Origin: an uncultured Anaerolineae bacterium
Lineage (GTDB): Bacteria > Chloroflexota > Anaerolineae > Anaerolineales > Villigracilaceae
DNA: 34,294 nucleotides
NCBI GenBank assembly: GCA_903822545.1
Contig: CAIJPN010000134.1
Coordinates: forward strand, 1 to 34,294
Direction of reading: 5' to 3'
Shown: piece by piece, positions 299 to 34,294 of the stretch
Layout: every line of letters starts with the position of its first letter
Numbering within the stretch: position 1 is the first letter of the stretch
The notes under the pieces: model-generated
Databases searched by the model: none
The model's input: the letters and a program-made list of their open reading frames with translations, nothing else
Told to the model about the DNA's origin: nothing
Made by a program: the position numbers and the translations under genes

Positions 299-380
299 TT
301 TAACGCGACCCGCTTCGCGGGGAAGGATAAGAGCACAGAACACAGAAAACCCGCTGCGCGGTCACAGGAAACAAAACCTT
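299..380 (-). repeat. VR1 3' flank, shared with the VR2 flank
   Basis: These 82 bases directly downstream of VR1, in coding orientation, are almost identical to 5124-5205 downstream of VR2. I count two differences (A/G at 327 versus 5152, T/C at 356 versus 5181). The TR has no such flank. The block contains two short GC-rich hairpins, CCCGC-TTC-GCGGG at 309-321 and CCGC-TGC-GCGG at 350-360. In studied DGRs a hairpin just downstream of the VR helps mark it as the recipient, so this is a candidate cis element for target recognition. Confidence 0.75.
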
Positions 381-3201
381 AATTAGGCGGGGAAAACAAA
401 CCCAACACACGAAAACCGATGTCGTCGTAACGGTTGTTCGGGTGGAAGTAGCTGCGGCCGGACACACGCGCGCTGACTACACTGAAGTCCCACGAGCCGC
501 CGCGCAGCCCCAGATATTGACGTGAAGTGGATGAATAATTGGCCTGCCACTCCCAAACATTTCCAGACATATCGATTACTCTGGTTGGACTTTCTCCGGA
601 TGGGTACATCCATACCGGGGTGGTACGGCGTATACCGCTTTCGCTGGTGTTGGCGTGGCGGGTAATTTCATCTGTTTTCTTCAGTTCGCCAAAGGCAAAG
701 CGATTTCCAGCAGGGCCACCTGCCGCCAGTTCCCACTCGCTTTCTGTAGGCAGGCGGATTTCCTTGGGCCTTGGTAAGCCCTGTTTGCCTTCATCCAGCT
801 TATCCCAATTCGCCAGCAGCCACTTACAGTAGGCATTGGCTTCCCACCAACAAACTCCCACTACCGGTGCGTTGGGGCGCATTTCGCCAAAACGCGCATC
901 AGACCAAGAGCCAGGTATCACTTTATTCCGCTCATCCAGCTTTTGTTTGAGCCACTGGTAGCCTTCATCACCCCAATCGCCAATCTTGGTGGATTTTTTC
1001 TCCGGCTCGGCGTATTTTGGGAAGCCCGTCCAGTATTTTTCGGCGTGAAAATCTTCCGCTTCAATGAAGCGCTTATATTGAACGTTGGTGACGGGGTAAC
1101 GCGCCAGGTAGAACAAAATCCCATTTTGTTCGATGGGGATAAATTTGTGCAGGTCATCGGGTTGGTAGCCCAGTTCATCAGCCAGGTCAGCGCAATTGGC
1201 GCGGATGCGAGCATCGGGCAGGGCGGCAACAGCCTGTTCACGTAGTTGTACGAGAATGTGCCCATCGGCATGGGCGGTCTTGTTGGGAAAAGCGCGCCGG
1301 AATAAGGCCAGCATTTCCCCGGCCAGCCAGGCCATGCGCGCTTTTTCCTCCGCAGATGCGGTTGCGGGCGGGCTGGATAGCGCATCCAGCCAGGTTTCCA
1401 TAGTTCCGCGCTGGGGCGAGCCAAAGCACAGGTGCTCACCCAGCAGTTTGATGGATTCGCGCCAACGGTCGCTTACCCCTGCCAGTAAATAAGCCTTTTC
1501 GTCAGGCTCCTCGTTTGCCAGGTAGCGCGCCGCCAGGTACTCTTCAAAGGTCAGATGCGGGAAGGCATACACTTTGCGGGATGGACGCCCCGGCGCCGCC
1601 AGTGTGCCTTGCTGCATCAGCAGGCCGTTGGTGCTTTCGCAGTATTTCAGGAAAGTCTCAACTTTGGCGCTTTCTTTCAGGTAGATTTTGAGCTTTCCAT
1701 CCAGCAGGTCTTCCGTTACCAGGGCGGCCTGTCCATCCCCGGCCTGGCGGCCCTCGTGGGCAAAATAGGCCACTTCCCACAGGGCCTGGAGCAGCACACT
1801 TTCGGGGACATCCAGCGCTTCAAGGATGCTGCGTTGGGTTTCCACACCCTGCACAGGGCGCTTATCCTGCCAATGGATCAGCAGCAGCTTGACGCAGCTT
1901 TCATAAACCTGGGCGCGTGTATCGGGCAGGTCGCCGTAATGGGTATGCACAATCGCCATAATGGTCAGGATAATCGGGAACGCGGCAATATCCAGCAAAC
2001 GGCGGCGGTCATCGGGCTGGAGATGCTGGAGCAGGCCATCGCGCTTTCGCGCAAATTCCGCTTTTCGGGCTGGTTCGATCTGGGTCAATTCGGCATACCA
2101 GGCGTTAACAAAATACTCGATCTTTTCCCGGTTGAGCAGGGCCAGTTCGTGGCTGGGCCAGCCTGCCAGTTTCCAATCGGCATCGTTGCGATACGAATAC
2201 GTGCGGCAGGTGACCAGGAAGTGGTTGTTGGTATTCCGGCCATATTTCAAGACAAAATCTTCCACGGCCTGCACCACCAATGGGCGTTTAGCCAGTTCGG
2301 CCACTTCATCCAACCCATCGAACATCATCAGGGCGCCTTCCGTGTTTAAGATGCGCAGGGCTAGCGGCGCAAAGCTTTGGGTGGATTCTTCGCTTTTCAG
2401 GGTTTCAACCAGGTAATTTTCCACCAGAGCCGCGTGACCCTTACGGCAACCGGCTGGCAGGCTTTCGGCAAAGCGCCCCAGCGAGAGCATGAACGGCAGC
2501 AGCGGGCGTCCCTGCCAGCCTTTGGGCAGTTCGGCAGTGCGGAAAAGTTCGGCTTTGGCCATCGTCAGCGCCAGGTAGCGCACAAAGGTTGATTTCCCCG
2601 TGCCGGGTAATCCCAATAGCACCATGCGTCGCTGGTCGCTGGCAAGCCAGGCTTCCAGCGCGCTCAGGGGCTCACTTTCCTTGTCTGGGCGGATTGAAAT
2701 TTCCTGCTCTTTCTTGTTTTTTCTATCCGGCTTCTCTTTTGGCGTGGTCGTATCCAGCGAAACATACAGCTTTTCCAGTGAAATCCCGCTGCGGTTGGGG
2801 TCAGAAGCATTCGGGTCCAACCCGGCCAGGCGCACCGAACTGCATTCTTTGAAAATGGCGCGCAGGTAAGCTTCGCGGGCGGTGAAAACATCCGGCGCGG
2901 CAGGTGGCGGGGCAGCGGGTTGGGGTTGCTGGGGGGCGGGTTCAACTGGTTTGGGCGGCGCTGCCTGTTCTACCGGTAGCTTTGGGGCTTCATCGCGCTG
3001 ATACTTGCCGCGCAGTTGCAAATATTGCAGCGCGGCATAGACCAGCAGCCCACCAATCGAAAGGATGTAAACCAGGGTGCTGAATGTGTCTGGGATGTTA
3101 TTACCCAATAAGGCAATCACAATCACCAAAATCACCACAAATGCAAACATGGCTGTCAGCTTTTTTGCCAGTTCGAGCAGGATATCTTTCCACTCTTTCA
3201 T
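379..3201 (-). CDS. DGR target 1: membrane-anchored NACHT NTPase with C-terminal FGE/C-type-lectin-fold sensor
   Basis: A 940-aa protein. ATG at 3201 is preferred because GGAGAG lies just upstream; an in-frame GTG at 3213 would add four residues. Residues about 14-36 and 41-60 are two hydrophobic segments, followed by a Pro/Ala/Gln-rich linker (about 75-105). The NACHT-type NTPase has Walker A GLPGTGKST at 197-205 and Walker B ALMMFDGLDE near 290-299. From about residue 683 a formylglycine-generating-enzyme/sulfatase-modifying-factor-like domain runs to the C-terminus, with landmarks FIPIEQNGILFYLARYPVT, RLPTESEWELAAGG, DMSGNVWEWQ and GLRGGSW. This fold is used by many DGR targets as a variable C-type-lectin scaffold. 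The last 43 or so residues are VR1. Inference: a membrane-bound STAND sensor whose ligand surface is diversified while the ATPase stays constant. The N-terminus could be an effector or only an anchor. Confidence 0.93.
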   Translation of the reverse strand: MKEWKDILLELAKKLTAMFAFVVILVIVIALLGNNIPDTFSTLVYILSIGGLLVYAALQYLQLRGKYQRDEAPKLPVEQAAPPKPVEPAPQQPQPAAPPPAAPDVFTAREAYLRAIFKECSSVRLAGLDPNASDPNRSGISLEKLYVSLDTTTPKEKPDRKNKKEQEISIRPDKESEPLSALEAWLASDQRRMVLLGLPGTGKSTFVRYLALTMAKAELFRTAELPKGWQGRPLLPFMLSLGRFAESLPAGCRKGHAALVENYLVETLKSEESTQSFAPLALRILNTEGALMMFDGLDEVAELAKRPLVVQAVEDFVLKYGRNTNNHFLVTCRTYSYRNDADWKLAGWPSHELALLNREKIEYFVNAWYAELTQIEPARKAEFARKRDGLLQHLQPDDRRRLLDIAAFPIILTIMAIVHTHYGDLPDTRAQVYESCVKLLLIHWQDKRPVQGVETQRSILEALDVPESVLLQALWEVAYFAHEGRQAGDGQAALVTEDLLDGKLKIYLKESAKVETFLKYCESTNGLLMQQGTLAAPGRPSRKVYAFPHLTFEEYLAARYLANEEPDEKAYLLAGVSDRWRESIKLLGEHLCFGSPQRGTMETWLDALSSPPATASAEEKARMAWLAGEMLALFRRAFPNKTAHADGHILVQLREQAVAALPDARIRANCADLADELGYQPDDLHKFIPIEQNGILFYLARYPVTNVQYKRFIEAEDFHAEKYWTGFPKYAEPEKKSTKIGDWGDEGYQWLKQKLDERNKVIPGSWSDARFGEMRPNAPVVGVCWWEANAYCKWLLANWDKLDEGKQGLPRPKEIRLPTESEWELAAGGPAGNRFAFGELKKTDEITRHANTSESGIRRTTPVWMYPSGESPTRVIDMSGNVWEWQANYSSTSRQYLGLRGGSWDFSVVSARVSGRSYFHPNNRYDDIGFRVLGLFSPPN
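381..511 (-). repeat. DGR variable repeat VR1 (3' end of target gene 1)
   Basis: 131 bases that align without gaps to TR 3518-3648 (offset 3137). I count 16 differences, and at every one the TR has adenine on the coding (minus) strand, with C, G or T replacing it. Non-adenine positions are all identical. The first non-adenine mismatch (512 versus 3649) marks the 5' edge. The template NNN triplets become DFS, SYF and YDD, while the HPNN stretch is unchanged. The 3' part is the constant, initiation-like segment ending at the stop codon. Confidence 0.97.
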
Positions 3202-3254
3202 ATATCTCTCCACGCCATCAGTCGCAACGAAAGCAGGATTGTTGCTATAAGATG

Positions 3255-3260
3255 ATTATA
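3255..3260 (-). promoter_or_regulatory. Candidate -10 box upstream of target gene 1
   Basis: TATAAT on the minus strand, 54 bases before the ATG at 3201. I see no convincing -35 hexamer at 16-18 bases. If active, target gene 1 is transcribed separately from the rest of the DGR, which fits the structured region on its upstream side. Confidence 0.35.
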
Positions 3261-3299
3261 TAATAGCTGCGTAAGTTCTGCCCACCCCGGAAATGAATT

Positions 3300-3412
3300 C
3301 CCCGCCCGGACGGTGGCTCTCACGGCTATCCACAGGATACGCCTTCGGCTATCCACAGGATACCCCTTCGGCTATCCACAGGATACACCTTCGGCTACTA
3401 GAACGGGCGGGG
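3300..3412. repeat. Long inverted repeat enclosing three tandem 23-bp units
   Basis: CCCCGCCCG at 3300-3308 pairs with CGGGCGGGG at 3404-3412. Between them are three tandem 23-base units (3324-3346, 3347-3369, 3370-3392) that differ mainly at one base, plus a partial fourth (GGCT). Each unit contains a small hairpin, TATCC-ACA-GGATA. This lies in the 304-base stretch between the TR and target gene 1, which has no gene. It could end the TR transcript or stabilise its 3' end. It is not CRISPR-like, because there are no spacers. Confidence 0.7.
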
Positions 3413-3483
3413 ATGTTTTGTATTTGGCTCCTTCCCGAAAGAAGGTTCGCCGGGCAGAAGGTCAGCTAATTTGGCCTCGATGC

Positions 3484-3497
3484 CAGTTTGCAAACTG
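3484..3497. promoter_or_regulatory. Perfect 14-bp palindrome just beyond the TR
   Basis: CAGTTTGCAAACTG is its own reverse complement and lies 20 bases beyond the 3' end of the TR in transcription order. It may be a protein-binding site or, in RNA, a short hairpin. Sequence next to the TR contributes to cDNA priming in studied DGRs, so this is a candidate structural element of the template RNA. Confidence 0.5.
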
Positions 3498-3517
3498 AAC
3501 ATACTGCTGGCCAGACA

Positions 3518-3648
3518 AATTATGCGGGGAAAACAAACCCAACACACGAAAACCGATGTTGTTGTTACGGTTGTTCGGGTGGTTGTTGTTGCGGTTGGAC
3601 ACACGCGCGTTGTCTACATTGTTGTTCCACGAGCCGCCGCGCAGCCCC
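3518..3648 (-). ncRNA. DGR template repeat (TR), core of the template RNA
   Basis: A non-coding copy of the VR, read on the minus strand and starting 28 bases after the avd stop codon. The central part contains thirteen AAY (Asn) codons in the VR reading frame, in blocks NNN, N, N, NNN, NN, NNN, plus GAC, CAC and ATC. Adenine replacement in AAC or AAT can reach many amino acids but never a stop codon. Both VRs differ from this sequence only at its adenines (16 in VR1, 22 in VR2). In known DGRs the TR RNA is reverse-transcribed with adenine errors and the cDNA replaces the VR. The 5' and 3' ends of the actual RNA cannot be set from sequence alone. Confidence 0.97.
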
Positions 3649-3676
3649 CATGACCTTTGCCCAATTATCCAGGCGC

Positions 3677-4012
3677 TCAGGCCTGTTTAATCCATGCTCC
3701 CAACAGCCGCCCCATTTCCACCATCATACGGGCGGCATGTTCGTACTGACCGATATTGATTAATCCCAGTTCGATTGAAAGGCGCAGCCAGAAACGCATT
3801 TGTTCCAGGGCAATATCGGCCTTTTTGAGCCAGGCGCGGCGCTCTTCGTTTTTCGATTTCCCGGCAGCGATGATGTGATCCTGGAAATCCATGCCGGTGC
3901 GCTGGATGCGTTCGGACAGGCTGAAACGATAGGCGCGCGGGAATTTTTGGACTTGCGGCAGCAGCCAGAGCAAAAAATCATGTGTGCGCACAAATAAGGG
4001 CGATTCATCCAT
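3677..4012 (-). CDS. avd: DGR accessory variability determinant (Avd-like four-helix-bundle protein)
   Basis: A 111-aa protein. The ATG at 4012 overlaps the RT stop codon (ATGGATGA, 8 bases) and has AGGAG seven bases upstream, so it is probably translationally coupled to the RT. The ORF can be extended to 4105, but that would lie fully inside the RT gene. The sequence is almost entirely helical and rich in basic and aromatic residues ([57 protein letters not shown]), as expected for the bAvd/four-helix-bundle family. Avd proteins of about 110-130 residues form a pentameric barrel that binds the RT and the template RNA and is needed for mutagenic cDNA synthesis. Its position between RT and TR is the classic arrangement. 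Confidence 0.9.
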
Positions 4013-5066
4013 GTTGCGCTCCTGGCGGAACGGTGAAACGGAACATTTTTCGGCGCAGCCCCCAGGTATCACCGTAACGCGCGTGGTTGGCCCAGCCTTG
4101 AACACTGGCTTTTAGGGCTGGGTACGAAAAACGCTGGGCCAGCCTGGCGCGGATTTTGCGCCGGAAATTGATGACTTTGCGGCTTTTGATGCGGCGATGT
4201 TCCGGGTAGATGCGAAAACCGAGAAACGGAATACCGGATGCTGTGGGGTAGACCAGGGCGCTCTCCTCGTGCAGGGTCAGGCGCAGGGAGGCCATTTTGG
4301 TGATAATTTGGCTGCGCCATTCGTAGAGTTGATCGAGATCGTTACCAAACAATAAGAAATCGTCAACGTAGCGTAAAAAAGCCAGGCATTTTAATTCGCG
4401 TTTAACGAACTGGTCAAACTGGTTGAGATACACGTTGGCAAGGAACTGGCTGGTAAGATTGCCGATGGGCAATCCCCTGGGCCGGGCGGCTGCAAACAGG
4501 TTATCGCCGGGGAACCAGGCCATTTCGTATTCTTCGCTCAAGACGCCTGTTCCGCTGTTCAAAATGACATCACACAGCCAGAGCAGGTCTGGATCGGAGA
4601 TCAGACGGGCCAGCTCTGCCCGTAAAAGGGCGTGATCAATGGATGGGAAAAATTGTTTGACATCGCATTGCAAGAACCAGCGGTAGCGCCGGGCGTATTC
4701 GGTGGTTTTGTCGAGGGCGCGATGGGTGCCCTTTCCAACCCGGTTGGCATAACTGGTATCGATGAAACGCGGCTCCCAAATGGGTTCAATGACCTGGCAC
4801 AGGGCATGATGTACCACCCGATCCCTGAACGGGGCGGCAGAGATCAGGCGCTTTTTGGGTTCATGCACATAAAAACTGGCATACGGGCCGGGCTGGTAGG
4901 TTTTCTCGCGCAACTCGTGCTGCAATGTAAACAATTCTTCCTCGTAATGGCGCTCAAACTGGGCGACATAGGCCTTGCTGCGTTTCTTTTTGCGGGCCTT
5001 GTGGTAGGCCAGGTAGAGGTTCTCAAAATCCCAGACCTGCGGGTAGAGATGGCGGTACGTTTTCAT
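4005..5066 (-). CDS. DGR reverse transcriptase
   Basis: A 353-aa protein. The start ATG at 5066 follows GGAGG closely; the longer ORF to 5168 runs into the repeated VR2 flank and is not credible. Motifs: RLISAAPFRDRVVHHAL (73-89), catalytic Asp in CDVKQFFPSID (134-144, D135), LPIGNLTSQFLANVYLNQFD (199-218), catalytic YVDD at 233-236, and GIPFLGFRI (278-286). The GNLTSQ form, with SQ where group II intron enzymes have QGG, is characteristic of DGR-type RTs. No maturase, integrase or endonuclease domain follows, and the length matches the family. It copies the TR RNA into cDNA with errors at adenine. It is coupled to avd by overlap and lies downstream of target gene 2. Confidence 0.96.
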   Translation of the reverse strand: MKTYRHLYPQVWDFENLYLAYHKARKKKRSKAYVAQFERHYEEELFTLQHELREKTYQPGPYASFYVHEPKKRLISAAPFRDRVVHHALCQVIEPIWEPRFIDTSYANRVGKGTHRALDKTTEYARRYRWFLQCDVKQFFPSIDHALLRAELARLISDPDLLWLCDVILNSGTGVLSEEYEMAWFPGDNLFAAARPRGLPIGNLTSQFLANVYLNQFDQFVKRELKCLAFLRYVDDFLLFGNDLDQLYEWRSQIITKMASLRLTLHEESALVYPTASGIPFLGFRIYPEHRRIKSRKVINFRRKIRARLAQRFSYPALKASVQGWANHARYGDTWGLRRKMFRFTVPPGAQHG

Positions 5067-5081
5067 AAGCCTCCATGGTTC

Positions 5082-5087
5082 AGTATA
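5082..5087 (-). promoter_or_regulatory. Candidate -10 box for RT-avd-TR
   Basis: TATACT on the minus strand, about 16 bases before the RT start and overlapping the T-run of the preceding hairpin. It would give a very short leader and has no clear -35. Offered only because a terminator-like hairpin separates the RT from target gene 2. Confidence 0.2.
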
Positions 5088-5115
5088 AAAACAGACGCTG
5101 GTTTTATTACCAGCG
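5087..5115 (-). terminator. Terminator-like hairpin between target gene 2 and RT
   Basis: A 7-bp stem (CGCTGGT at 5096-5102, ACCAGCG at 5109-5115) with a 6-base loop, followed on the minus strand by TCTG and then a T5 run (5091-5087). It lies in the 137-base gap between the target gene 2 stop and the RT start. It could end target transcription or attenuate it, letting only part of the transcripts continue into RT-avd-TR. Confidence 0.55.
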
Positions 5116-5123
5116 CCTGAAAA

Positions 5124-5205
5124 TTTAACGCGACCCGCTTCGCGGGGAAGGGTAAGAGCACAGAACACAGAAAACCCGCTGCGCGGCCACAGGAAACAAA
5201 ACCTT
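5124..5205 (-). repeat. VR2 3' flank, shared with the VR1 flank
   Basis: Second copy of the 82-base block at 299-380, with two substitutions and both short GC-rich hairpins kept. Non-coding conservation this high beside two otherwise diverged genes points to recent duplication, gene conversion or functional constraint. Confidence 0.75.
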
Positions 5206-8200
5206 AATTAGGCGGGGAAAACAAACCCAACACACGAAAACCGAAGCCGTTGCCACGGCCGTACGGGCGGTTGCTGCCGCGGAGGGACACACGCGCGAAG
5301 ACTACATTGCCGAGCCACGAGCCGCCGCGCAGCCGTAGCGTATTGTGATCTTTATTGTAGAAATTGGCCTGCCACTCCCAAACATTGCCAGACATATCCA
5401 TGAGCTTGTAAGGATCGCTGGATCCCTGTGGGTACATCCATACCGGCGTGGTGCGCCCAATGTCGCTTTCTGACGTATTGGCATGTTGAGTAATTTCCCG
5501 GGCCAGGTCTTTCAACTCGCCAAAGGCGAAACGGTTATTTTGTTCGCCGCCCGCTGCCAGGATCCATTCTGCTTCGGTGGGCAGGCGGAATTTCAATTCA
5601 GAATTCAGATTTTTGAATTCTGAATTTTGTTCAGCTTCCAGCGAACTCCGCCAGTTGGCAGCCAACCATTTGCAGTAGGCGTTGGCTTCGTACCACGAAA
5701 TCCCCACTACCGGCGCGTTCGGGCGCAGCGCGCCAAAACGCGCGTCCTTCCAGTAGCGCGGGAGAACAACCCCATTTTCTACCTCGATATCTTGTTTTTC
5801 CTGGAAGGCCGCATCTGAAAGAGCCTGTTTTAGCCATTGCCAGCCTTCATCACCCCAATTGCCAATCTTTGCATACTTCTTTTCGGGTTCAGCGTATTTG
5901 GGGAAGTCCACCCACAGGTCTTTGTTGGCAAAGTTCTCCGGTTTCAAGAAGCGGGCATACTGGGCGTTGGTGACGGGGTAACGCGCCAGGTAGAACAAAA
6001 TCCCATTTTGTTCTATGGGGATAAAGGTACAAATATCTTTATCCAATTCGCGCGACAAGCCAACATCATCCAGCAAGTCTGCAAAATGGGCGCGGGTTGG
6101 CGCGGGGAGTCCAGTATCAGTGGCAGCCTGGTACAGGCTGTTTTGAACTTCAACGCGCTGGGCATGCGGCAGGCGGTTGGTCATGTCACGCGCCATCATG
6201 CCTGCAATCGTTAGACGGCGCGCCCAGGCTTCGGAGCCGCGCTCAAACCGGCTCGCGTCTGCCAGCAGGGCAGGGGTCCACTTTTTATAGAGTACTGAAC
6301 CGGAGGGGTGCGCCGCGGCAAAGCACAGCATTTCATCCCACCAGGTCGGATCTTCATCCAGAACTGCCAGGGCCGCATCCACTGGATCATCCAGGGTTTG
6401 GATAAGGGCCGTGGCAGCGAAATATTCCATGAAATTTTTGTGGATGAAGGAGTAGGTGCCGGGGCTGATTTCCACCAGAATACCGCTGCGGTCGTGCGAA
6501 TTGCGCAGGAAACCCTTTGCCCATCGTTTGGCATCCATCGGTGATGCGCCTTCAATTTCCTGAAGGTAGGCGGCCAGAGACTTCTGGGCCTGGGTTTCGC
6601 TGATTTCGACCGATTTCAACTCGGTCTGCATCCCGTAGGCCAGGTGCGCCAGGCGGTTGCGCTTGTACTCAACCGATTCTTGTGTGCCATCATAGTGCTG
6701 CTCCGTGCCATCTTCTTTGGCCATTTCATGGGATTCGGCGACATCCTTTTGGGCGTGCCAGAAACCGAGCAGCAAATCAGCAATTTCAGCCAGCACATCC
6801 ACCCGGCGCTGAGGCAGGTCAATACCATGATATTTGTAAACCTGCACCAGCGCCGAACAAAAGAGTGGCACCCCAGCAATTTCGGTCAGACGTGGGTTGC
6901 CCAGCACACGTTCAACCAGATGGGTGTCATTTTTATATTTTTCGCGGCCTTCATCATCCATCCATAGCAGGTTTTGAATGAGTTGACGGATGCCAGCGGG
7001 CTGCAAGGGGGTCACTTCGGCCAGGGCCAGGTCTGCTTCTTTCAGGCGGGCGCGCACATCTTCATCGTAGCCGCGCGGGCGGGATGAAATGCCAACCCGG
7101 TTGCCATTCCTGCCATATTCCTCGATAAATTTCTGCACAAAATGGGCAACTTCAACGCGGTTACCCGCGACTTCGTCCAGCCCATCGAGCAGTACCAGAC
7201 ACTTGCCCTCGGACAGGCGGCTGTCGAAGAAATCGGGAGTCAGGCTGTGGCGTTTTCCGGTTTTTTGCATCCGTTCCAGGTAAGCCACCAGCGCACCGGA
7301 GGATGGCTCGCAAAACTCGGCGCTATTTTTTGCCAGGAAACTGCCAAAGTTCCGCAGGCGCACAAAAATGGGCAAAAGGGGGGCGCCTTTCCAGCCCAGG
7401 TCTTGTTCGGCGCGGCCTTCGGCAAAAGCCAGTCCTGCTCGCCGTAACAGGGTGGTTTTGCCGGAACCAGGCAAGCCAATCAGCACAAAGCGTTCATAAC
7501 GTGCCAGCAGGTTATTAAAATCCACCGGGCGCACATCCTCGATCTTATCCATATCTTGTGGGCGCGGCGAGCGTTTTTCGGCTTTTTTGCGAGCCTGTTC
7601 TTCTGCTTTTTCATCACGCACGTACAGCGGCACAAATACGTTGGTCAGTTTGGCGGTGGACGTGCTGGCTGGACCTTTGCGCACAAACGGCAGGGAGAGC
7701 GTCCCCAGGCTGGTGCGCAGATCTTTCAGGTAAGCCTCGAGCACAGCGGGGTCGCTCCCGGTCAGGCCGCGCTCGGCGGTCAGCAGTTCGAGCAGGCTTT
7801 TCATGCGCGATGTGTCTGAAACCAAGCGCGCAATCTCAGTGGCGATACCATCCAAGCGGTGGTTACGGGCCATATCGTTTGCAAAAGTAATCAGCGGTTG
7901 GAAAGTGGCAGCTTTCTCGATGTGCTTGCGCAGGTAGGTCAGGTAGCGCGCCAGCCAGGGACGGTCTGTTTCTTCCATGTGTAAGGCTGCGAGCAGTTCT
8001 GCCGGAATATGTCCTGGCTCGGGGCTGGTCATTTCAACTGCACTGGCGGCCAGTAGTTGGTGTGCATCCGCGTTGAGTGCGGTCAGGGAATTGACGATTT
8101 TCAAACGCTCGAACTTGTCTCCCACCTCGGCCTTGAAATCATCCAGGGCATCCTGGGTCGTCGCGCGCAGTTCTTCTGCGGCCTTTTTCTTATCGTACCC

Positions 8201-8326
8201 GCTGGTCAGCCATTTCTGGAACGGCTCCAAACCTGTTTTGAGAGCTGGTTCGATAACAGCTTTCTCGGCCAGCTTTTTCCCAACTTCCACCAGCGCAGCG
8301 GCAAATAACGCAGTTTCGATGACCAT
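5204..8326 (-). CDS. DGR target 2: soluble NACHT NTPase with C-terminal FGE/C-type-lectin-fold sensor
   Basis: A 1,040-aa protein. ATG at 8326 has AGGAG six bases upstream. Residues 1-215 are mostly helical with no transmembrane segment and resemble no effector I can name; 236-262 is a charged Lys/Glu linker. The NACHT-type NTPase has Walker A GLPGSGKTT at 284-292 and Walker B LVLLDGLDE at 377-385, followed by a sensor-like ISSRPRGY and a helical winged-helix-like region. The FGE/C-type-lectin-fold domain begins near residue 765 and closely matches target 1 (FIPIEQNGILFYLARYPVTN, FPKYAEPEKK, DMSGNVWEWQANF, LRGGSW). VR2 covers about residues 997-1040. It is the first gene of the DGR, with a TATAAT box upstream. 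Inference: a cytoplasmic STAND switch with a hypervariable recognition surface. Confidence 0.93.
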   Translation of the reverse strand: MVIETALFAAALVEVGKKLAEKAVIEPALKTGLEPFQKWLTSGYDKKKAAEELRATTQDALDDFKAEVGDKFERLKIVNSLTALNADAHQLLAASAVEMTSPEPGHIPAELLAALHMEETDRPWLARYLTYLRKHIEKAATFQPLITFANDMARNHRLDGIATEIARLVSDTSRMKSLLELLTAERGLTGSDPAVLEAYLKDLRTSLGTLSLPFVRKGPASTSTAKLTNVFVPLYVRDEKAEEQARKKAEKRSPRPQDMDKIEDVRPVDFNNLLARYERFVLIGLPGSGKTTLLRRAGLAFAEGRAEQDLGWKGAPLLPIFVRLRNFGSFLAKNSAEFCEPSSGALVAYLERMQKTGKRHSLTPDFFDSRLSEGKCLVLLDGLDEVAGNRVEVAHFVQKFIEEYGRNGNRVGISSRPRGYDEDVRARLKEADLALAEVTPLQPAGIRQLIQNLLWMDDEGREKYKNDTHLVERVLGNPRLTEIAGVPLFCSALVQVYKYHGIDLPQRRVDVLAEIADLLLGFWHAQKDVAESHEMAKEDGTEQHYDGTQESVEYKRNRLAHLAYGMQTELKSVEISETQAQKSLAAYLQEIEGASPMDAKRWAKGFLRNSHDRSGILVEISPGTYSFIHKNFMEYFAATALIQTLDDPVDAALAVLDEDPTWWDEMLCFAAAHPSGSVLYKKWTPALLADASRFERGSEAWARRLTIAGMMARDMTNRLPHAQRVEVQNSLYQAATDTGLPAPTRAHFADLLDDVGLSRELDKDICTFIPIEQNGILFYLARYPVTNAQYARFLKPENFANKDLWVDFPKYAEPEKKYAKIGNWGDEGWQWLKQALSDAAFQEKQDIEVENGVVLPRYWKDARFGALRPNAPVVGISWYEANAYCKWLAANWRSSLEAEQNSEFKNLNSELKFRLPTEAEWILAAGGEQNNRFAFGELKDLAREITQHANTSESDIGRTTPVWMYPQGSSDPYKLMDMSGNVWEWQANFYNKDHNTLRLRGGSWLGNVVFARVSLRGSNRPYGRGNGFGFRVLGLFSPPN
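5206..5334 (-). repeat. DGR variable repeat VR2 (3' end of target gene 2)
   Basis: 129 bases aligned without gaps to TR 3518-3646 (offset 1688). I count 22 differences, all at TR adenines on the coding strand. The first non-adenine difference (5335 versus 3647) marks the 5' edge. Relative to the template, Asn blocks become LGN, GSN, YG and GNG, His becomes Arg and Ile becomes Phe. More sites have changed here than in VR1, including the HPNN stretch that VR1 leaves intact, so the two targets have been mutated independently. Confidence 0.97.
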
Positions 8327-8546: not shown

Positions 8547-8684
8547 ATGAAAGCCAACATAACAACGTCCCACCAAGAACGCATCGATAGCTTCCAACGT
8601 CAACTTGCGCGGGCCATCCGCCGCCTGAAACAACGAACCACCACAACTCAACCCGGGGACTGCCAGCATGAACGCGCCCAATGA
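8547..8684 (+). CDS. Small 45-aa protein upstream of recombinase 1
   Basis: ATG at 8547 with GGAG about eight bases upstream; stop TGA at 8682-8684, overlapping the recombinase start at 8668 by 17 bases. The product is basic and hydrophilic, with a probable helix (QERIDSFQRQLARAIRRLKQR) and a Thr/Gln tail, and has no recognisable domain. The good ribosome binding site and the overlap suggest it is translated and coupled to the recombinase. It may act only as a leader peptide setting recombinase expression, or as a small accessory protein. Confidence 0.5.
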   Translation: MKANITTSHQERIDSFQRQLARAIRRLKQRTTTTQPGDCQHERAQ

Positions 8685-9516
8685 TCCCACTTTCAAAGCT
8701 CCCGGTAATCTTGAAGAATTGCTCGCCCCACTTGGCTCGAACTTTGGCACCCGCAGGGGCCTGACCTGGGCGGTCTATTCGCGCATCTCCAGGATTGACC
8801 CGCACCACCCGGGTTATTCGATGGAATCCCAGCCCGACCATGCCGAAGGTTATGCCCGCTCGCATGGGGCAGAAACCATCCTCAGCTATGCCGATCCAGA
8901 TCGCACCGGGAAAAACAGCAAACGTGAGGGTTTGCAGGCAATGATCCGTGACATCAAGGCTGGCCGGGTGGATGTGGTCGTCATCCACCGGCTGGATCGC
9001 CTGTATCGCAACCTGGAATCGCTGCTGGCTTTCACCCGGCTGCTGAAGAAGTACAACGTCAAGCTGGTCTCCGTGACCGAACAGATCGACACCACCTCCT
9101 GGTGGGGCCGCCTGGCCCTGGCAGTCCTTGGGCACATGGCCGAGTCCTACCTGCACCAGACCAGCAGCAACACCCGCACCGGCCTGAACACCCGCCGCCG
9201 GGCCGGGCTGCACCTGGGGCACCTTCCAACCGGCTACTGTAACGGCCTGTGCTCCACCTGCACTGATCCCAACGGGGCTGGCTACTGCCCAGGCTATGGC
9301 GGCCCGGATCGCCCGGAAAGCCAACGCGGACGATTGGCGGTTCCCCACCCGGTAGACCGGCATGTCATCCCGCTGATCTTTGAGCTGTACCTGCAAGGCC
9401 TGAGCTGTCGTGAGATCGCCGCCCATCTCAACAACCACCTGGCGCAACTGCCGGATGGTAGTCAGGTGCGTTTTCGTCCGCGCAGGAAAGGGGATAAAGG
9501 CCATGAAGAGGCATGA
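8668..9516 (+). CDS. Large serine recombinase 1, N-terminal part (resolvase domain)
   Basis: A 282-aa product. The resolvase/invertase catalytic domain is clear: VYSRIS near 36-41 holds the presumed catalytic Ser, with YSMESQ, then VDVVVIHRLDRLYRN and WGRLALAVLGHMAESY. A Cys-rich insertion (CNGLCSTC, YC) and the start of the recombinase (DNA-binding) domain follow. The protein stops at 9516, mid-domain, exactly where the intact recombinase 2 continues into QKDSVRALLNNPFY. The rest of the domain lies in another frame (next entry), so this gene is either frameshifted or split into two coupled ORFs. Such recombinases integrate and excise mobile elements through a covalent serine-DNA link. Confidence 0.85.
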   Translation: MNAPNDPTFKAPGNLEELLAPLGSNFGTRRGLTWAVYSRISRIDPHHPGYSMESQPDHAEGYARSHGAETILSYADPDRTGKNSKREGLQAMIRDIKAGRVDVVVIHRLDRLYRNLESLLAFTRLLKKYNVKLVSVTEQIDTTSWWGRLALAVLGHMAESYLHQTSSNTRTGLNTRRRAGLHLGHLPTGYCNGLCSTCTDPNGAGYCPGYGGPDRPESQRGRLAVPHPVDRHVIPLIFELYLQGLSCREIAAHLNNHLAQLPDGSQVRFRPRRKGDKGHEEA

Positions 9517-10456
9517 GTTTCGCAAGGACAGCATTCGCAGCATCATCGAAAACCCCTTCTATGCCGGAATGATCGCGCGTTACCCACGCCCGAAGTTTGA
9601 CACCGAAGACAACATCGAACACCCTGAGAACATCCCGTCTCCCAACGTGGATGGGAAACGGCGCGAGATACTGGCCTTGCATCCAGGCCAGCACGAAGCC
9701 CTGATCACGGTGGCCCAGTGGCAGGCCGTGAACGACCTGCGTCACCAAAAGAACAACACCCCAATTGCCACAGACAACGGCAAGCGCATCTACATGCTGA
9801 GCGGGATCGGGCGCTGCTGGGAATGTTACCAGGCCAGCGGGCATGAATACAGCCTGCGTGGTTCAACCGGCGGCAAGGGCACAGCCTACTATCGCTGCGC
9901 CTACCAGCACGACAGCGCCAGCAAGCGTACATCAAGCAGGAAGCCGCGTCCCACCGGCCTGAACCTGGTTCCCGCTGAAATCGATCTCGCCCTGGCCAAA
10001 CGCCATGCCAGCCTGCGCGCAGACCGGCTGGAAAGCCAGGTCAACCAGCTGGTGTCCCGGCTGGTCATCCCCCAGGAATGGCGCGAAGCCATCATGGCCT
10101 ACTACCTGTCCGATGACGGCATGGGCGAGTTCGAGCGCGAAGGCTACAACCTGCGCCAGTCGCTCAAACGGCACCGGGATCTGTACCTGCAAGGTCACAT
10201 CTCGAAGCGTGACTATGAACAACAGGCTCGCTTTATCACCCAGCGCCTGGATGCGCTCAAACCATCGGCCAGCCCTGAAGCCAGGGAGATCCTGCCCCTG
10301 CTGGATTCGTTTGCCAGCACCTGGAGGCAGTTGAACAACGGCGAAAAACGCGCCATGCTGGGCACGCTTTTCGCCGGATTGTATTTTGATCGGGATGGGG
10401 AATTGCGCCATATCCTGGCGCATGAGCCTTTTGGAGAGCTACTGGGGTTGTCCTGA
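9503..10456 (+). CDS. Large serine recombinase 1, C-terminal part
   Basis: A 317-aa product from ATG 9503 (AGGAAAGG upstream), overlapping the previous ORF by 14 bases in a different frame. It begins with the motif that continues the recombinase domain (RKDSIRSIIENPFYAGMI), then a zinc-ribbon-like CWECYQASG...YYRC and a coiled-coil helical tail. Together the two ORFs equal about 594 residues, a normal large serine recombinase. Possible readings are a recent frameshift inactivating the gene, a sequencing error, a programmed frameshift, or two polypeptides that assemble. Its 3' end overlaps the convergent regulator gene by 18 bases. Confidence 0.8.
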   Translation: MKRHEFRKDSIRSIIENPFYAGMIARYPRPKFDTEDNIEHPENIPSPNVDGKRREILALHPGQHEALITVAQWQAVNDLRHQKNNTPIATDNGKRIYMLSGIGRCWECYQASGHEYSLRGSTGGKGTAYYRCAYQHDSASKRTSSRKPRPTGLNLVPAEIDLALAKRHASLRADRLESQVNQLVSRLVIPQEWREAIMAYYLSDDGMGEFEREGYNLRQSLKRHRDLYLQGHISKRDYEQQARFITQRLDALKPSASPEAREILPLLDSFASTWRQLNNGEKRAMLGTLFAGLYFDRDGELRHILAHEPFGELLGLS

Positions 10457-10980: not shown

Positions 10981-11394
10981 ATGCGCAACACAACTTTGCG
11001 CGCCGCCGGATACCGGCGAGTTTCCATGCGAGAACAGGTAGATGGACACAGCCTGGCCGCCCAGGAGACCAATATCCGGCAGCATGTCCAGTCCCAGGGT
11101 TGGGAACTGGTGGAACTGTACACCGACGCGGGTATCTCCGCCAAGAAGGACAGCAACCGCCCGGCCCTCAACCAGCTGCTCCAGGATGCCCAGGCAGGCA
11201 AGTTTGATGTCATCATCGTGGACAAGCTGGATCGTTTCTACCGCCACCTGCGCGGATTACTGATGGCCCTTGACCAGATCAACGGCTACGGGGTGTCGTT
11301 TGTCTCGGTGCAGGAACGCCTGGACTTCACCACCGTCTGGGGCAAGCTGACCCTGGCGATCCTGGGCACGCTCGCAGAAATTTATTTGCAGAAT
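10981..11394 (+). CDS. Large serine recombinase 2, exon 1 (catalytic domain)
   Basis: 138 codons from ATG 10981, with a strong AAGGAGG upstream. Catalytic features: GYRRVS with the presumed nucleophile Ser, YTDAGISAKKDSNRPALNQL, FDVIIVDKLDRFYRHLRG, WGKLTLAILGTLAEIYLQN. The gene is interrupted at 11395 by a group II intron; without splicing, translation runs into the intron and stops at 11430. Joined to exon 2 (13851-15005) it encodes 522 residues. The joined sequence aligns without gaps to recombinase 1 from AESYL/AEIYL to TGYC/FGYC across the junction, which supports the splice sites to the codon. Confidence 0.92.
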
Positions 11395-11923
11395 GTGCGC
11401 CGTTCGATGGCATGTGCTGATTGCGCTTAAGGCGCCACAGGTTGAAGAGCATACCTGTGAGGCCGTCCGACCTACCGAAAAGGGAAACCTGAACGGGAAC
11501 ATCGCCTGTCGGAAAAGGGGCGAGCCGGGAAACTGTTTACCGGTGTCGTCGCCCCAAGGCCTGGATGATATGGGTAAAGCTGGATTGCTTGAAGTCTAAT
11601 GGTCGTTGGAGACAAGGTACTCCCTTGACACAACAGTTGAAGTCAAGACCCGGCGGCAGCAGTCAGAAGTTTTGGGGCTGCGAAATCTTCCCAGCCGGGA
11701 ACAAGGTCAGTGAGACTGATAAAACCATGAGTAGACACCCTAACCCATCCTGTTACGTCACACATGACTGTACAACGGGATCGCCTAAGGGGCGCGAGCC
11801 CTATGGCGACGGAAACTCCATAGTAGTCGGTGGGGTCACGTCCACCCGGGGCGGTTGGGAAAGCCAACCACAGGGCCAAGGGAGTTAGGAACTGAGCTTG
11901 TCAGGAAATGAGAGGTATGCGTA

Positions 11924-13714
11924 ATGCAAACAGCCGAACACATTCTACAAGCAATGCGAAAGATGGGAGAAAAGCGAACCCCATTGGAGCGCGCGTATCG
12001 CAGCCTGTTCAGCGAGGACTTGTTCCTTGCTGCGTATGGCAAGATAGCCCGCAACAAAGGCGCTTTGACGGCAGGAAGTGATGAAAGGGATACAGTGGAT
12101 GGGATGAGCCTGGAGCGCATTCGGAAAGTGATCGAAGAACTGCGCAATGAGCGTTTCCGGTTCCATCCTACCCGGCGTATTCGAGTACCCAAGAAAAGCG
12201 GCGGTGAAAGACCGCTCGGCATTCCAAATTTCACGGACAAGCTGGTGCAAGAGGCGCTGCGACAGGTGCTGGAAGCCTACTACGAACCCCGATTTCGGAA
12301 CAGTTCACATGGCTTTCGCGCAAAACGTGGCTGCCAGACCGCATTAGCCGCCATGAAATACAAGTTCAAGGGCGCAACATGGTTCATCGAAGGTGACATC
12401 CGAGGATGCTTTGACCATATCGACCATCAGGTTTTGATGGAAATCCTGGCAAGGGACATCAAGGATGGACGCTTGCTCAACCTGATACGGATGGGGCTGG
12501 AAGCAGGTTACATGGAAGAATGGGAATACAACCGCACCTACAGTGGCACACCGCAGGGCGGCATTCTCAGCCCGCTTTTGGCGAACATCTACATGAACGA
12601 GTTGGACAGCTTTATCGAGGATGTGCTCATCCCGCAATACAGCCGAGGCGAAAAACGAGCCGAAAACCCGGAATACAAAAGGTTGCAGTGCGCCGTAACA
12701 CAGGCCCGGAAGAAAGGCGATGTCAAGAAAGCCAAAGAAATCGAATTCCAGCGGCGACACGTGCCATCGCAGAATGTGTACGACCCCAACTACCGGCGCT
12801 TGCAGTACATTCGCTGTGCGGATGATTTCATCCTGTGTTTTATCGGGACAAAGGCCGAAGCGGAAGCCATCAAAGAAGCCATCGGAACATTCTTGAGAGA
12901 AAAGCTGCACCTTGAACTCAGCCCCACCAAAACACTCATCACTCACGCCCGGACAGGGTATGCCCGCTTCGTGGGATACGCCCTCAGCGTGTACAACGCA
13001 GATGACAAACTCTCACCCCGCCAGGGAACCAGGATAAAACTCCGCTCTCAAAGCGGTCATGTCCGTTTTGGAATTCCCTTTGGCAAGGTGGATGAACTGA
13101 TAACCCGTTACATGGAAAACGGCAAAGTAACGCACGATAACAGCCTGTTGAAATTCACCGATGCAACGATTGTCAACATCTACCAGCAACGTTTTCGCGG
13201 TCTGGCGGAATTCTACAAATACACCACCGACCGGCGACGCCTGCAAAAGTTGAAGTACTACATGGAAATTGCCTTGACCAAAACCCTGGCCTGCAAGCAC
13301 AAAACATCGGTAAAGAGCATCTACCGCAAGTACGCCTCCCGGCGGGAAGTGGATGGACACTCTTACAAGGTGCTGGCAGTTGAAATTCCTGGATCACAGG
13401 GAAAGCAGTATGCGTACTGGGGCGGCATCTCCCTGAAAAGGGTGGATGTCGGGCAAGGCTACCTCATCGACCGCGCGGTAAAAGACGAACTCCCACAGCC
13501 AACGAAGTTGGAACTGATACGGAGATTGCAAGCGAACCGCTGCGAACTTTGCGGCTCAACCGAAAAATGTGAAGTCCATCATGTGAGAAAGTTGGTGGAC
13601 ATCAAGCGTCAGTGGCGCAACCGTGAGAAACCCGCCTGGGTAGAGAGAATGCTTCAAATCCGAAGAAGAACGCTGGTTGTCTGTGAGGAATGCCACCATG
13701 AAATTCATTCCTGA
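11924..13714 (+). CDS. Group II intron-encoded protein: reverse transcriptase, maturase and HNH endonuclease
   Basis: A 596-aa protein; ATG 11924 is preceded by GAGAGG. Residues about 60-330 are the RT: KKSGGERPLGIPNFTDKLVQEAL, FIEGDIRGCFDHIDH (catalytic Asp), TYSGTPQGGILSPLLANIYMNELD, and YIRCADDFILCF, in which ADD is the catalytic pair. The QGG motif distinguishes it from the DGR RT. The maturase (domain X) region follows (about 400-500, QQRFRGLAEFYKY). The C-terminus holds an HNH-type zinc-binding endonuclease, CELCGS...CEVHHV...CEECHHEIH (about 542-595). It binds the intron RNA to help splicing, cuts the target and copies the intron. All parts look intact, so the intron may still be mobile. 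Confidence 0.95.
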   Translation: MQTAEHILQAMRKMGEKRTPLERAYRSLFSEDLFLAAYGKIARNKGALTAGSDERDTVDGMSLERIRKVIEELRNERFRFHPTRRIRVPKKSGGERPLGIPNFTDKLVQEALRQVLEAYYEPRFRNSSHGFRAKRGCQTALAAMKYKFKGATWFIEGDIRGCFDHIDHQVLMEILARDIKDGRLLNLIRMGLEAGYMEEWEYNRTYSGTPQGGILSPLLANIYMNELDSFIEDVLIPQYSRGEKRAENPEYKRLQCAVTQARKKGDVKKAKEIEFQRRHVPSQNVYDPNYRRLQYIRCADDFILCFIGTKAEAEAIKEAIGTFLREKLHLELSPTKTLITHARTGYARFVGYALSVYNADDKLSPRQGTRIKLRSQSGHVRFGIPFGKVDELITRYMENGKVTHDNSLLKFTDATIVNIYQQRFRGLAEFYKYTTDRRRLQKLKYYMEIALTKTLACKHKTSVKSIYRKYASRREVDGHSYKVLAVEIPGSQGKQYAYWGGISLKRVDVGQGYLIDRAVKDELPQPTKLELIRRLQANRCELCGSTEKCEVHHVRKLVDIKRQWRNREKPAWVERMLQIRRRTLVVCEECHHEIHS

Positions 13715-13747
13715 CGATAATATCCCATCCCAAACATCAGTTTTGGA

Positions 13748-13781
13748 GAGCCGGATGATCCGAAAGGGTCAAGTCCGGTTC
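13748..13781 (+). ncRNA. Group II intron domain V
   Basis: Exactly 34 bases, beginning GAGCCGGATG and ending AGTCCGGTTC, with a GAAA tetraloop and the AGC catalytic triad near the 5' strand. This is the most conserved active-site hairpin of group II introns. Domain VI follows immediately. Confidence 0.93.
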
Positions 13782-13850
13782 GGAGGGGGGTCTGTGGAAA
13801 AGTACCGTCCGTGTATCAATGGGCGGCAACTCGCCACTTTCCTACCCAAC

Positions 13851-15005
13851 TTGCAACAGGAGACTCGGAAAGGCAAGATCCAGCGTGCCCGGGAAGGCTT
13901 GTGGAACGGCAACCCGCCCTTTGGATACTGCCGGGGGCTGTGCTCTCAGTGCGAAGAAGTCAACGGCCCCAACTACTGCCCCAATGTTGGCAATCCCAAC
14001 CTGGGTGATGGCAAGCACCTGCTGCCGCATCCCATCGAAAGTGAAGTGGTGCGGCTGGCATTCAACTGGTATGCCAACGGCCAGGGTTCTGATAGCGGGA
14101 TCGCTGTCTTGCTGAACGAATATCCGCTGAATGAGAACGGGCTGCGGCCTCGCACGCGTGGCATTCCTGGGCGAACACTTCCTGGCCCATTCCAGAAGGA
14201 TTCTGTGCGCGCGCTGCTCAACAACCCGTTTTACACAGGCGTGATTCCCTACTATGGCAAGCAGCTCAACGGCTCTCGCCCAGATAAAACACCCCAGCTC
14301 TTCCCTGGACAGCATGAAGCCATCGTTGAGCCGGAGAAATTTGCCCAGGTGCAGGAAGTGCGCAAGATGTTCACCTATTCACCGCGCAAGCGTGGGTCGG
14401 TGGTCGTGCGGGATTACCTGCTGACGGGGATTTTGCGCTGTGGCTATTGTGGCAGGCCGATGCGCGGTTCCTGTGATGGAACCGGCAGGAAACATTACTA
14501 CCGGGATGCCACGCGCATCGACAGGTCGGGGGATTGTCCGCAGTGCACCCTGAAAGCGCCGGTGATCGAGGCCATGTTCCTGGACTGGCTGCGCAAGACG
14601 CTGGACAACCAACAGGTTGTGCAAGCGTTGGAAAGCCAGCAAGCCAGCATGGATCAGGCCGATGCGCGCTTTGAACGAGCGCGGGATTTGTACCTGGCTG
14701 GGCAGTTGAGCCGGTCTGCGTATGATCTAGAGAAGGAAAGGCAGTTAAATGCAAAAAAGCACTTGCTAGAAAACGCTTACAGTGCTAATATCGGGGATAT
14801 TAATGCGATGCGGCAAGCAGCATCGATGTGGGATACCCTTATCCCAATAAATCGTAAAAGACTGTTCCTGTTATCGGCAGAAACAGTCTTCGTACGGGAC
14901 AGCGTTTTGTTAGGCGTTCAACCAACTAGCACGCTGTTGCCATTTACGGGAAATGGCTTTTGTTGTAGCTGCGGACCCGACGAGATTCGGGTTCGCGGTG
15001 CGTAA
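13851..15005 (+). CDS. Large serine recombinase 2, exon 2 (DNA-binding and zinc-ribbon part)
   Basis: 384 codons and a TAA stop, in frame with exon 1 after intron removal. The frame stays open upstream inside the intron, but that part is intron sequence. It starts LQQETRKGKIQRAREGLW, then a Cys-rich segment (CRGLCSQCEEVNGPNYC), the recombinase domain (FQKDSVRALLNNPFYTGVI), a four-cysteine zinc ribbon (CGYCGRPM...CPQC) and a coiled coil. Unlike recombinase 1 it has no frameshift, so after splicing it should be functional. The last 20 or so residues (FCCSCGPDEIRVRGA) look atypical and may be read-through into flanking DNA. Confidence 0.9.
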   Translation: MQQETRKGKIQRAREGLWNGNPPFGYCRGLCSQCEEVNGPNYCPNVGNPNLGDGKHLLPHPIESEVVRLAFNWYANGQGSDSGIAVLLNEYPLNENGLRPRTRGIPGRTLPGPFQKDSVRALLNNPFYTGVIPYYGKQLNGSRPDKTPQLFPGQHEAIVEPEKFAQVQEVRKMFTYSPRKRGSVVVRDYLLTGILRCGYCGRPMRGSCDGTGRKHYYRDATRIDRSGDCPQCTLKAPVIEAMFLDWLRKTLDNQQVVQALESQQASMDQADARFERARDLYLAGQLSRSAYDLEKERQLNAKKHLLENAYSANIGDINAMRQAASMWDTLIPINRKRLFLLSAETVFVRDSVLLGVQPTSTLLPFTGNGFCCSCGPDEIRVRGA

Positions 15006-33647: not shown

Positions 33648-34294
33648 CTATGTGGCCATCAACCTAAACAACACCTCATACTCCTGCTTCGGGATCACCT
33701 TCACCACATCCCCAGTCTCGAAATCATAGACCACCTGCCTCAAGATGATCTGGCAGAGCTCCTGCTTCTCATCCATCGTGGCCGCGCGCCAGGCGGTTTG
33801 CAGGTTGGCCAGCACCGCCCCGGCCTGGCGCATTTCGTGCGGGGTGAGTTGCTCCAGCGCATCCAGTTGGGATTGCAGGGCCTCGACTTCGCGCCAGAAG
33901 GTGCGCTCATCGTCTTCGTACATCCCGCGCTTGTAGGCTTCGCGCATCCGGCGCATCTCGCTTTTGAGACGCGCCTTTTCCTTTTGCGGGTCGATCTCAT
34001 CCTTCTTGGCGTTCAGGATTTCCTGCAAGTCGGCCTGCCAGGTCTTGGGAAGCACCAGCTTTTCCATCAGCTCGGAGATTTTTGCTTCCACCACATCGGC
34101 GCGGACGCTTTTGCCGTCATGGCGGCAGTGACTGCCCACCAGCCGGGATGAATCACGATAGTAGCGGCCACTTTTGGCGCTCTGGGCACGCATCCGGTGG
34201 CCACATTCAGCGCAGACGATGATGCCCGAGAGCAGGTACACCCGCCGGGTGACCTGGTTCGAGTTGATCTGCCGCCTGCGCTCGGCGCGGATGG
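33648..34294 (-). CDS. Large serine recombinase 3, C-terminal part (5' end outside the window)
   Basis: The frame is open from the window edge to the stop at 33648. The GTG at 34241 is not a real start, because coding sequence (INSNQVTRRVYLLSG) continues upstream of it. Visible are the end of the recombinase domain, a zinc ribbon (CAECGHRM...YYRD...CRHDG) and a long charged coiled coil (residues rich in Arg, Glu and Lys), then a beta-rich tail. The catalytic domain would lie beyond the window. It differs from recombinases 1 and 2 in the ribbon and coiled coil, so it is not a recent copy of either. Confidence 0.85.
   Translation of the reverse strand, partial: IRAERRRQINSNQVTRRVYLLSGIIVCAECGHRMRAQSAKSGRYYRDSSRLVGSHCRHDGKSVRADVVEAKISELMEKLVLPKTWQADLQEILNAKKDEIDPQKEKARLKSEMRRMREAYKRGMYEDDERTFWREVEALQSQLDALEQLTPHEMRQAGAVLANLQTAWRAATMDEKQELCQIILRQVVYDFETGDVVKVIPKQEYEVLFRLMAT

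Follow-up and report, generated by a model that had tools for sequence, protein, structure and literature searches.

A group II intron at a conserved site of a large serine recombinase gene from an uncultured Anaerolineae bacterium

Introduction

Can two recombinase fragments that flank a reverse transcriptase (RT) gene belong to one gene split by an intron? This question is raised by a stretch of 34,294 nt from an uncultured Anaerolineae bacterium (assembly GCA_903822545.1, contig CAIJPN010000134.1), referred to here as the window. At positions 10981-15005, open reading frame (ORF) calling yields a shortened ORF of 149 aa (10981-11430) and a 442 aa ORF with a TTG start (13677-15005), which begins within the intervening sequence and reads through into the second recombinase part. 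A first-pass annotation had interpreted the locus as a serine recombinase gene that carries a group II intron and whose frame is exactly restored by splicing, and had predicted that standard ORF calling would misreport the gene, as it indeed does.

This interpretation is supported by empty sites in relatives, by covariation of the exon-intron pairings in two sets of introns, by the fold of domains V and VI and by a second allele, at locus L026, that is likewise occupied. From these data it is highly probable that a mobile group II intron of the IIA / mitochondrial-like type entered a large serine recombinase gene by retrohoming, at a conserved site within the part that encodes the catalytic domain; splicing of the intron would be expected to yield a recombinase of 522 aa. 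Recombinases of this kind appear as two genes under plain ORF calling, which is a warning for annotation.

Structure of the split gene and empty sites in relatives

The 2456 nt intron is inserted between codons 138 and 139 of the recombinase gene (Table 1). Joining the exons gives the 522 in-frame codons that had been claimed. The Resolvase, Recombinase and zinc-ribbon domains, which were searched with Pfam exon by exon, all fall into this one joined frame, as in a large serine recombinase. The predicted ligated junction of the recombinase RNA reads ...CAGAAT / TTGCAA....

Table 1. Features of the window; positions refer to the 34,294 nt stretch.
Feature	Position	Strand	Evidence or remark
Large serine recombinase gene, intron included	10981-15005	+	522 codons + stop once exons are joined
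Exon 1, catalytic (Resolvase) domain, codons 1-138	10981-11394	+	Pfam PF00239 Resolvase 7.3e-31
IBS2, TATTT, exon positions -12 to -8	11383-11387	+	5/5 pairs with EBS2, 3 Watson-Crick
IBS1, CAGAAT, exon positions -6 to -1	11389-11394	+	6/6 pairs with EBS1: 4 Watson-Crick, 2 G-U
Group II intron, 2456 nt, GTGCGCC...CTACCCAAC	11395-13850	+	RF00029 match ending at 13850; empty sites; EBS/IBS
5' ribozyme part, taken as one block (domains I-III, beginning of IV)	11395-11923	+	87% nucleotide identity with L026; 16-intron alignment
EBS2, AGGTA	11615-11619	+	73/80 pairs over 16 introns
Delta nucleotide A, directly 5' of EBS1, pairs with delta' = T13851	11668	+	11/14 and 13/14 introns
EBS1, GTTTTG	11669-11674	+	88/96 pairs over 16 introns
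Intron-encoded protein, 596 aa: RT, maturase (X), HNH endonuclease	11924-13714	+	Pfam RVT_1 1.2e-28, Intron_maturas2 8.3e-9, AI2M-like_HNH (PF21368) 5.8e-10
RT catalytic motif CADD in place of YADD, residue 298 Cys	12815-12826	+	75 relatives compared
Domain V, 34 nt	13748-13781	+	RF00029; fold of aligned 3' ends
Domain VI and intron 3' end	13784-13850	+	Fold of 14 aligned 3' ends
Bulged branch-point adenosine	13844	+	Unpaired alignment column 107; A in 14/14 introns
Exon 2, Recombinase and zinc-ribbon domains, 384 codons + stop	13851-15005	+	Pfam PF07508 Recombinase 1.8e-14, PF13408 Zn_ribbon_recom 6.5e-14
Recombinase 1, frameshifted	8668-10456	+	Homology switches frame between about 9483 and 9518
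Another serine recombinase fragment at the contig end: C-terminal part with zinc ribbon	33648-34241	-	
Possible diversity-generating retroelement	300-8326	-	RT, small ORF, two large ORFs, repeats
RT of possible diversity-generating retroelement	4005-5168	-	
Small ORF, candidate Avd	3677-4105	-	By position only
Two large ORFs with similar C-terminal ends	379-3213, 5204-8326	-	
Repeats of possible diversity-generating retroelement	300-509, 5125-5334, 3437-3646		88% (5125-5334); 64%, possible template (3437-3646)

The coordinates given by the first-pass annotation for intron and gene proved correct: The end of the Rfam match, the empty sites and the pairings described below agree on them. Rfam family RF00029 (group II) matches positions 13746-13850 with 58.7 bits (cut-off 40) and stops at the proposed last intron base. 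The termini, GTGCG at 11395 and AC at 13849-13850, fit the GUGYG and AY rules. Domains V and VI fold jointly in 14 aligned 3' ends. The fold comprises the predicted 34 nt domain V and a domain VI with an invariant unpaired A; in 18 of its 33 pairs, at least one sequence carries changes on both sides with the pair retained. A13844 is the seventh base from the intron end and thus within the 7-8 nt expected for a branch-point A.

The search for empty sites covered 396 genomes of the window's class, counting its own genome; 41 of them contain a recombinase match at E <= 1e-40. Other genomes than the window's accounted for 58 of the listed places, from which the best-scoring one per genome was fetched, 29 in total, and the junctions compared. 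The proteins of all 29 intron-free relatives align ungapped across the junction, over 15 residues before and 14 residues after it, and many are close to AEIYIDN/LRQETRKGK. Two of them (L121 and L125) contain one in-frame stop each, located away from the junction. The empty site that the first-pass annotation had proposed to look for is, therefore, present in each fetched relative. For the neighbouring recombinase 1, whose gapless alignment it had also put forward, the comparison at the junction was made by eye; farther downstream, recombinase 1 is frameshifted.

Exon-intron pairings and intron subclass

Relatives of the intron were found in 18 of the 396 genomes at E <= 1e-60, the window's own included; a survey of the phylum at 1e-80 gave 28 out of 400 genomes, some of them the same. 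A third source comprised 73 loci in named genomes, many of them distant. Related introns occupy many different sites, and their exon ends vary between copies. In 16 introns, the exon-binding site EBS1 and the intron-binding site IBS1 form 88 of 96 possible pairs, compared to a mean of 67.0 and a maximum of 78 with permuted exons, and none of 5000 permutations was as good. EBS2 and IBS2 form 73 of 80 pairs versus a permuted mean of 56.1, again unmatched in 5000 permutations. Three registers were tried for IBS2 (79/96, 78/96 and 73/80 pairs, each 0/5000), the last of which is reported.

As the EBS columns had been located by scanning the same 16 introns, the pairing test was repeated on 25 further ones. 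This set started from 43 loci, of which 16 without a single 5' end and two with exon tails repeating others were dropped; L024 is a close copy of the L018 intron of the first set, and other near-copies were retained. Here, EBS1-IBS1 reaches 136 of 150 and EBS2-IBS2 116 of 125 pairs (0/5000 permutations as good for each). Thus, both pairings that had been suggested as a check were found and are supported in either set. The delta-delta' pair is present in 11 of 14 introns of the first set (130/20000 permutations as good) and in 13 of 14 further introns (0/20000).

Other assignments were tried and dropped. An EBS2 at GATAAA near 11718, guessed by eye, was abandoned when the scan over the relatives placed EBS2 at about 11611-11617. 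For an EBS3 of the IIB type, none of the aligned columns occupied in 12 or more of the 14 introns gave as many as 11 pairs. A IIC intron of the terminator type is ruled out by the EBS2 pairing and the location in coding DNA, which run against the traits of IIC introns.

Delta-delta' pairing is the rule in group IIA introns. It agrees with the best match of the intron protein among solved structures in the PDB, which is LtrA (374 bits over residues 21-595). Together, the pairing rules and the LtrA-like protein suggest an intron of the IIA / mitochondrial-like (LtrB-like) type.

The intron-encoded protein

The first-pass annotation had described an intact RT-maturase-HNH protein. All three domains are present according to Pfam. 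'Intact RT' is, however, too strong and doubtful, because Cys replaces Tyr in the YADD motif. Among 75 relatives with a readable motif, 71 have YADD, two YCDD, one FADD and one YTDD. Of the two features looked for in a retrohoming-competent intron, the HNH endonuclease is present and the YADD motif is not. The exchange may impair intron mobility. With a CADD motif and the maturase and HNH domains present, this copy may, therefore, splice yet no longer move, and it is perhaps now kept mainly by splicing. CADD might also originate from a sequencing or assembly error. In the same genome (5.5 Mb, 237 contigs, with the window as the complete contig 134), the full intron was found once; a 115 nt piece with 82% identity on another contig is probably a decayed copy.

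Sites used by related introns

Both ends were found for 14 introns of the first set, the window's included. In 10 of them, splicing would produce a continuous frame with more than 40 open codons to either side of the junction, and the same holds for 8 of 14 in the further set; these counts stand without a chance baseline. Pfam searches with the separate exons identified helicases (L005 and L009; L004 below the cut-off), SSB (L018) and a ThiF-family protein (L010) as hosts. The host of L023 is methyltransferase/helicase-like, near the Pfam cut-off, and the exons of L008 and L021 match no Pfam family. A frame-restoring intron inside a gene is common in this intron lineage and nothing special to the window.

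Another repeated site is found in SSB-like frames (...NLGxDPEMR/...), where L018, L022 and probably L024 carry introns at the same place; the Pfam SSB match was obtained for L018 only. In L015 (G196:C26), a related group II intron at 990-3399 of the locus interrupts the anticodon loop of a gene for tRNA-Arg(CCU): When the flanks are joined, they are called as this tRNA, and EBS1-IBS1 forms 6/6 pairs. This genome contains no empty copy of the loop sequence at up to two mismatches. None of 42 tRNAs read among its 46 tRNA matches is tRNA-Arg(CCU); one of the 42 has no clear anticodon, and four matches of 82-87 nt were left unread. A literature search, judged by titles and abstracts, yielded no bacterial case.

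A second occupied allele and the history of the intron

The closest intron found (L026; 76% RT identity) comes from the Anaerolinea sp. D180 metagenome-assembled genome (Anaerolineaceae, Chloroflexota; JARKPU010000051.1) and interrupts a homologous recombinase at the same codon. The two recombinases are about 70% identical in exon 1 and about 40% in exon 2, and the 5' ribozyme parts of the introns are 87% identical at the nucleotide level. In contrast to the window intron with its CADD motif, L026 has YADD. The L026 genome contains one match to the 5' ribozyme.

In L026, IBS1 is GATAAT and EBS1 ATTGTC, whereas the window has CAGAAT and GTTTTG. Both exon positions that differ remain paired, and swapping EBS1 gives only 4/6 pairs either way. 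With the 29 empty sites, the EBS1 of L026 forms at least 5/6 pairs at 21 sites, that of the window at one. The window recombinase has moved away from the usual Asp-Asn codons, and the intron has either followed or been retargeted.

Was the intron gained once or twice? This concerns its history, not its identity. The intron might already have been present in the ancestral gene of both recombinases, been passed on with it and lost elsewhere, instead of having homed twice, which we regard as possible, if somewhat improbable. In a tree of 31 recombinases, a single clade of the two intron-bearing genes is not rejected (approximately unbiased [AU] test, p 0.304); therefore, one gain with losses and two gains are both possible. 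Against a common origin, the two genes are united in 0 of 200 bootstrap trees, and fourfold sites agree at 100/197 positions in the RT versus 17/43 and 30/77 in the exons, all of them near saturation. When the intron junctions of 98 fetched loci and 45 further ones (L129-L173) were compared by their exon proteins, only L026 lay in the recombinase family besides the window's own L001 and L003. Five weak exon-protein matches (L066, L061, L041, L051, L029) lie away from the intron junctions.

A farther-reaching proposal, which we consider speculative and rather unlikely, combines these observations: The conserved Asp-Asn/Leu site at the end of the large serine recombinase catalytic domain would be one to which LtrB-like introns home repeatedly in Chloroflexota-type bacteria, and EBS1 and exon would coevolve after landing. 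The window intron would have lost full RT function and kept its maturase, which would make the outer recombinase dependent on splicing, with splicing as its gate.

Proposed splicing and alternative explanations

The boundaries, the pairings, domains V and VI, the empty site and the second occupied allele can be read directly from the sequence. We infer that splicing takes place in the cell, that the recombinase level depends on it and that the spliced recombinase is active. Upon transcription of the gene, the ribozyme, aided by its own maturase, would act on the RNA. EBS1 and EBS2 would bind the last bases of exon 1, delta would pair with T13851 at the start of exon 2, the intron would leave as a lariat via A13844, and the joining of codons 138 and 139 would create the 522 aa recombinase. 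It is plausible that in this way one mobile element depends on the splicing of a second one: Production of the outer element's recombinase should require prior splicing of the inner element.

Several observations weigh against this interpretation. The delta-delta' pair is absent in 3 of 14 introns of the first set. Of its 16 introns, L004 has only 4/6 EBS1 pairs and six others 5/6, and L021 has 2/5 EBS2 pairs. No clear joined frame exists in L006, L007 and L016, L015 lies within a tRNA gene, L004 and L008 also pass the threshold with a second, probably meaningless frame, and 6 of 14 introns of the further set miss it. Secondary-structure folding covered domains V and VI only. The intron protein scores 265 bits with NCBIfam group_II_RT_mat, below the cut-off of 300, and Cys at the first position of the RT motif occurs in none of the 75 relatives. 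Finally, the frameshift in the partner, recombinase 1, weakens the claim of a dependence between two mobile elements.

Splicing might have a further consequence, which is compatible with the scenario above and adds to it: The spliced intron could attack the ligated mRNA and thus act as a brake, both on the recombinase and on the mobile element around it. The EBS pairing would permit re-targeting of the ligated junction, and precedents exist. Ll.LtrB in a relaxase gene reduces host gene expression and conjugation (PMC6003770), and RmInt1, which resides in ISRm2011-2, has been argued to limit the spread of this element (PMC4238363). The two G-U pairs in EBS1-IBS1 could, however, weaken re-targeting, and we see a brake as possible, though less likely than not. 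Since the same codon is occupied in a diverged recombinase by an intron with a differently tuned EBS1, the window and L026 form a pair that could serve to test whether such introns hold back the elements that host them, in the manner of Ll.LtrB.

Alternatively, the intron might be dead or splicing-deficient and the recombinase a pseudogene. The CADD motif, the frame change in the neighbouring recombinase 1 and the 115 nt piece elsewhere in the genome could be taken as signs of decay. In contrast, exon 2 has an open frame of 384 codons and retains its domains, EBS1 and EBS2 fit the exon despite its departure from the usual target, and domain V, domain VI and the maturase domain are all present; a dead intron is, therefore, very unlikely. 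A chance co-occurrence of intron and gene pieces is ruled out, because the covariation and the empty sites fix the boundaries.

Comparison with known nested introns

That group II introns can be nested in other mobile elements is already well known, and the window contains a further clear case at a conserved site. Ll.LtrB is a IIA intron that uses delta-delta', and its protein LtrA is the best structure match to the window intron protein. RmInt1 is not known to carry an endonuclease domain, and orf14 of Tn5397 is not known to encode this transposon's recombinase. Ll.LtrB likewise lies in a gene for DNA processing that belongs to a mobile element; its host is the ltrB relaxase gene on the conjugative plasmid pRS01 from Lactococcus lactis (PMC6003770). 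RmInt1 from Sinorhizobium meliloti is similarly nested in ISRm2011-2 (PMC4238363), and so is the intron of the conjugative transposon Tn5397 from Clostridioides difficile, whose splicing in orf14 has been shown (PMC4430133). They differ from the window intron in several respects. The host of Ll.LtrB is a relaxase, whereas that of the window intron, which has the RT motif CADD and is known here from its sequence, is a serine recombinase. RmInt1 uses EBS3-IBS3 (PMC4238363), in contrast to the delta-delta' pairing and the HNH domain of the window intron. Chloroplast-like and mitochondrial-like introns also occur in housekeeping genes, according to a further paper, whose reference list includes a recA case in Geobacillus kaustophilus (PMC4424553). 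No group II intron inside a serine recombinase gene was found in our literature search, most subscription journals being outside its reach.

Neighbouring features of the window

Upstream of the split gene, the minus strand carries an RT, a small ORF, two large ORFs and repeats, which we take to be a possible diversity-generating retroelement with a candidate Avd; both labels are our own reading and do not derive from any database match. The split gene is not the only serine recombinase gene in the window (Table 1). Serine recombinase matches in close pairs on one contig were found in 12 genomes besides the window's own (e.g. G375:C93, G211:C256 and G103:C57). The two recombinases of the window have NCBIfam matches of the CcrA/CcrB type, well below the cut-offs.

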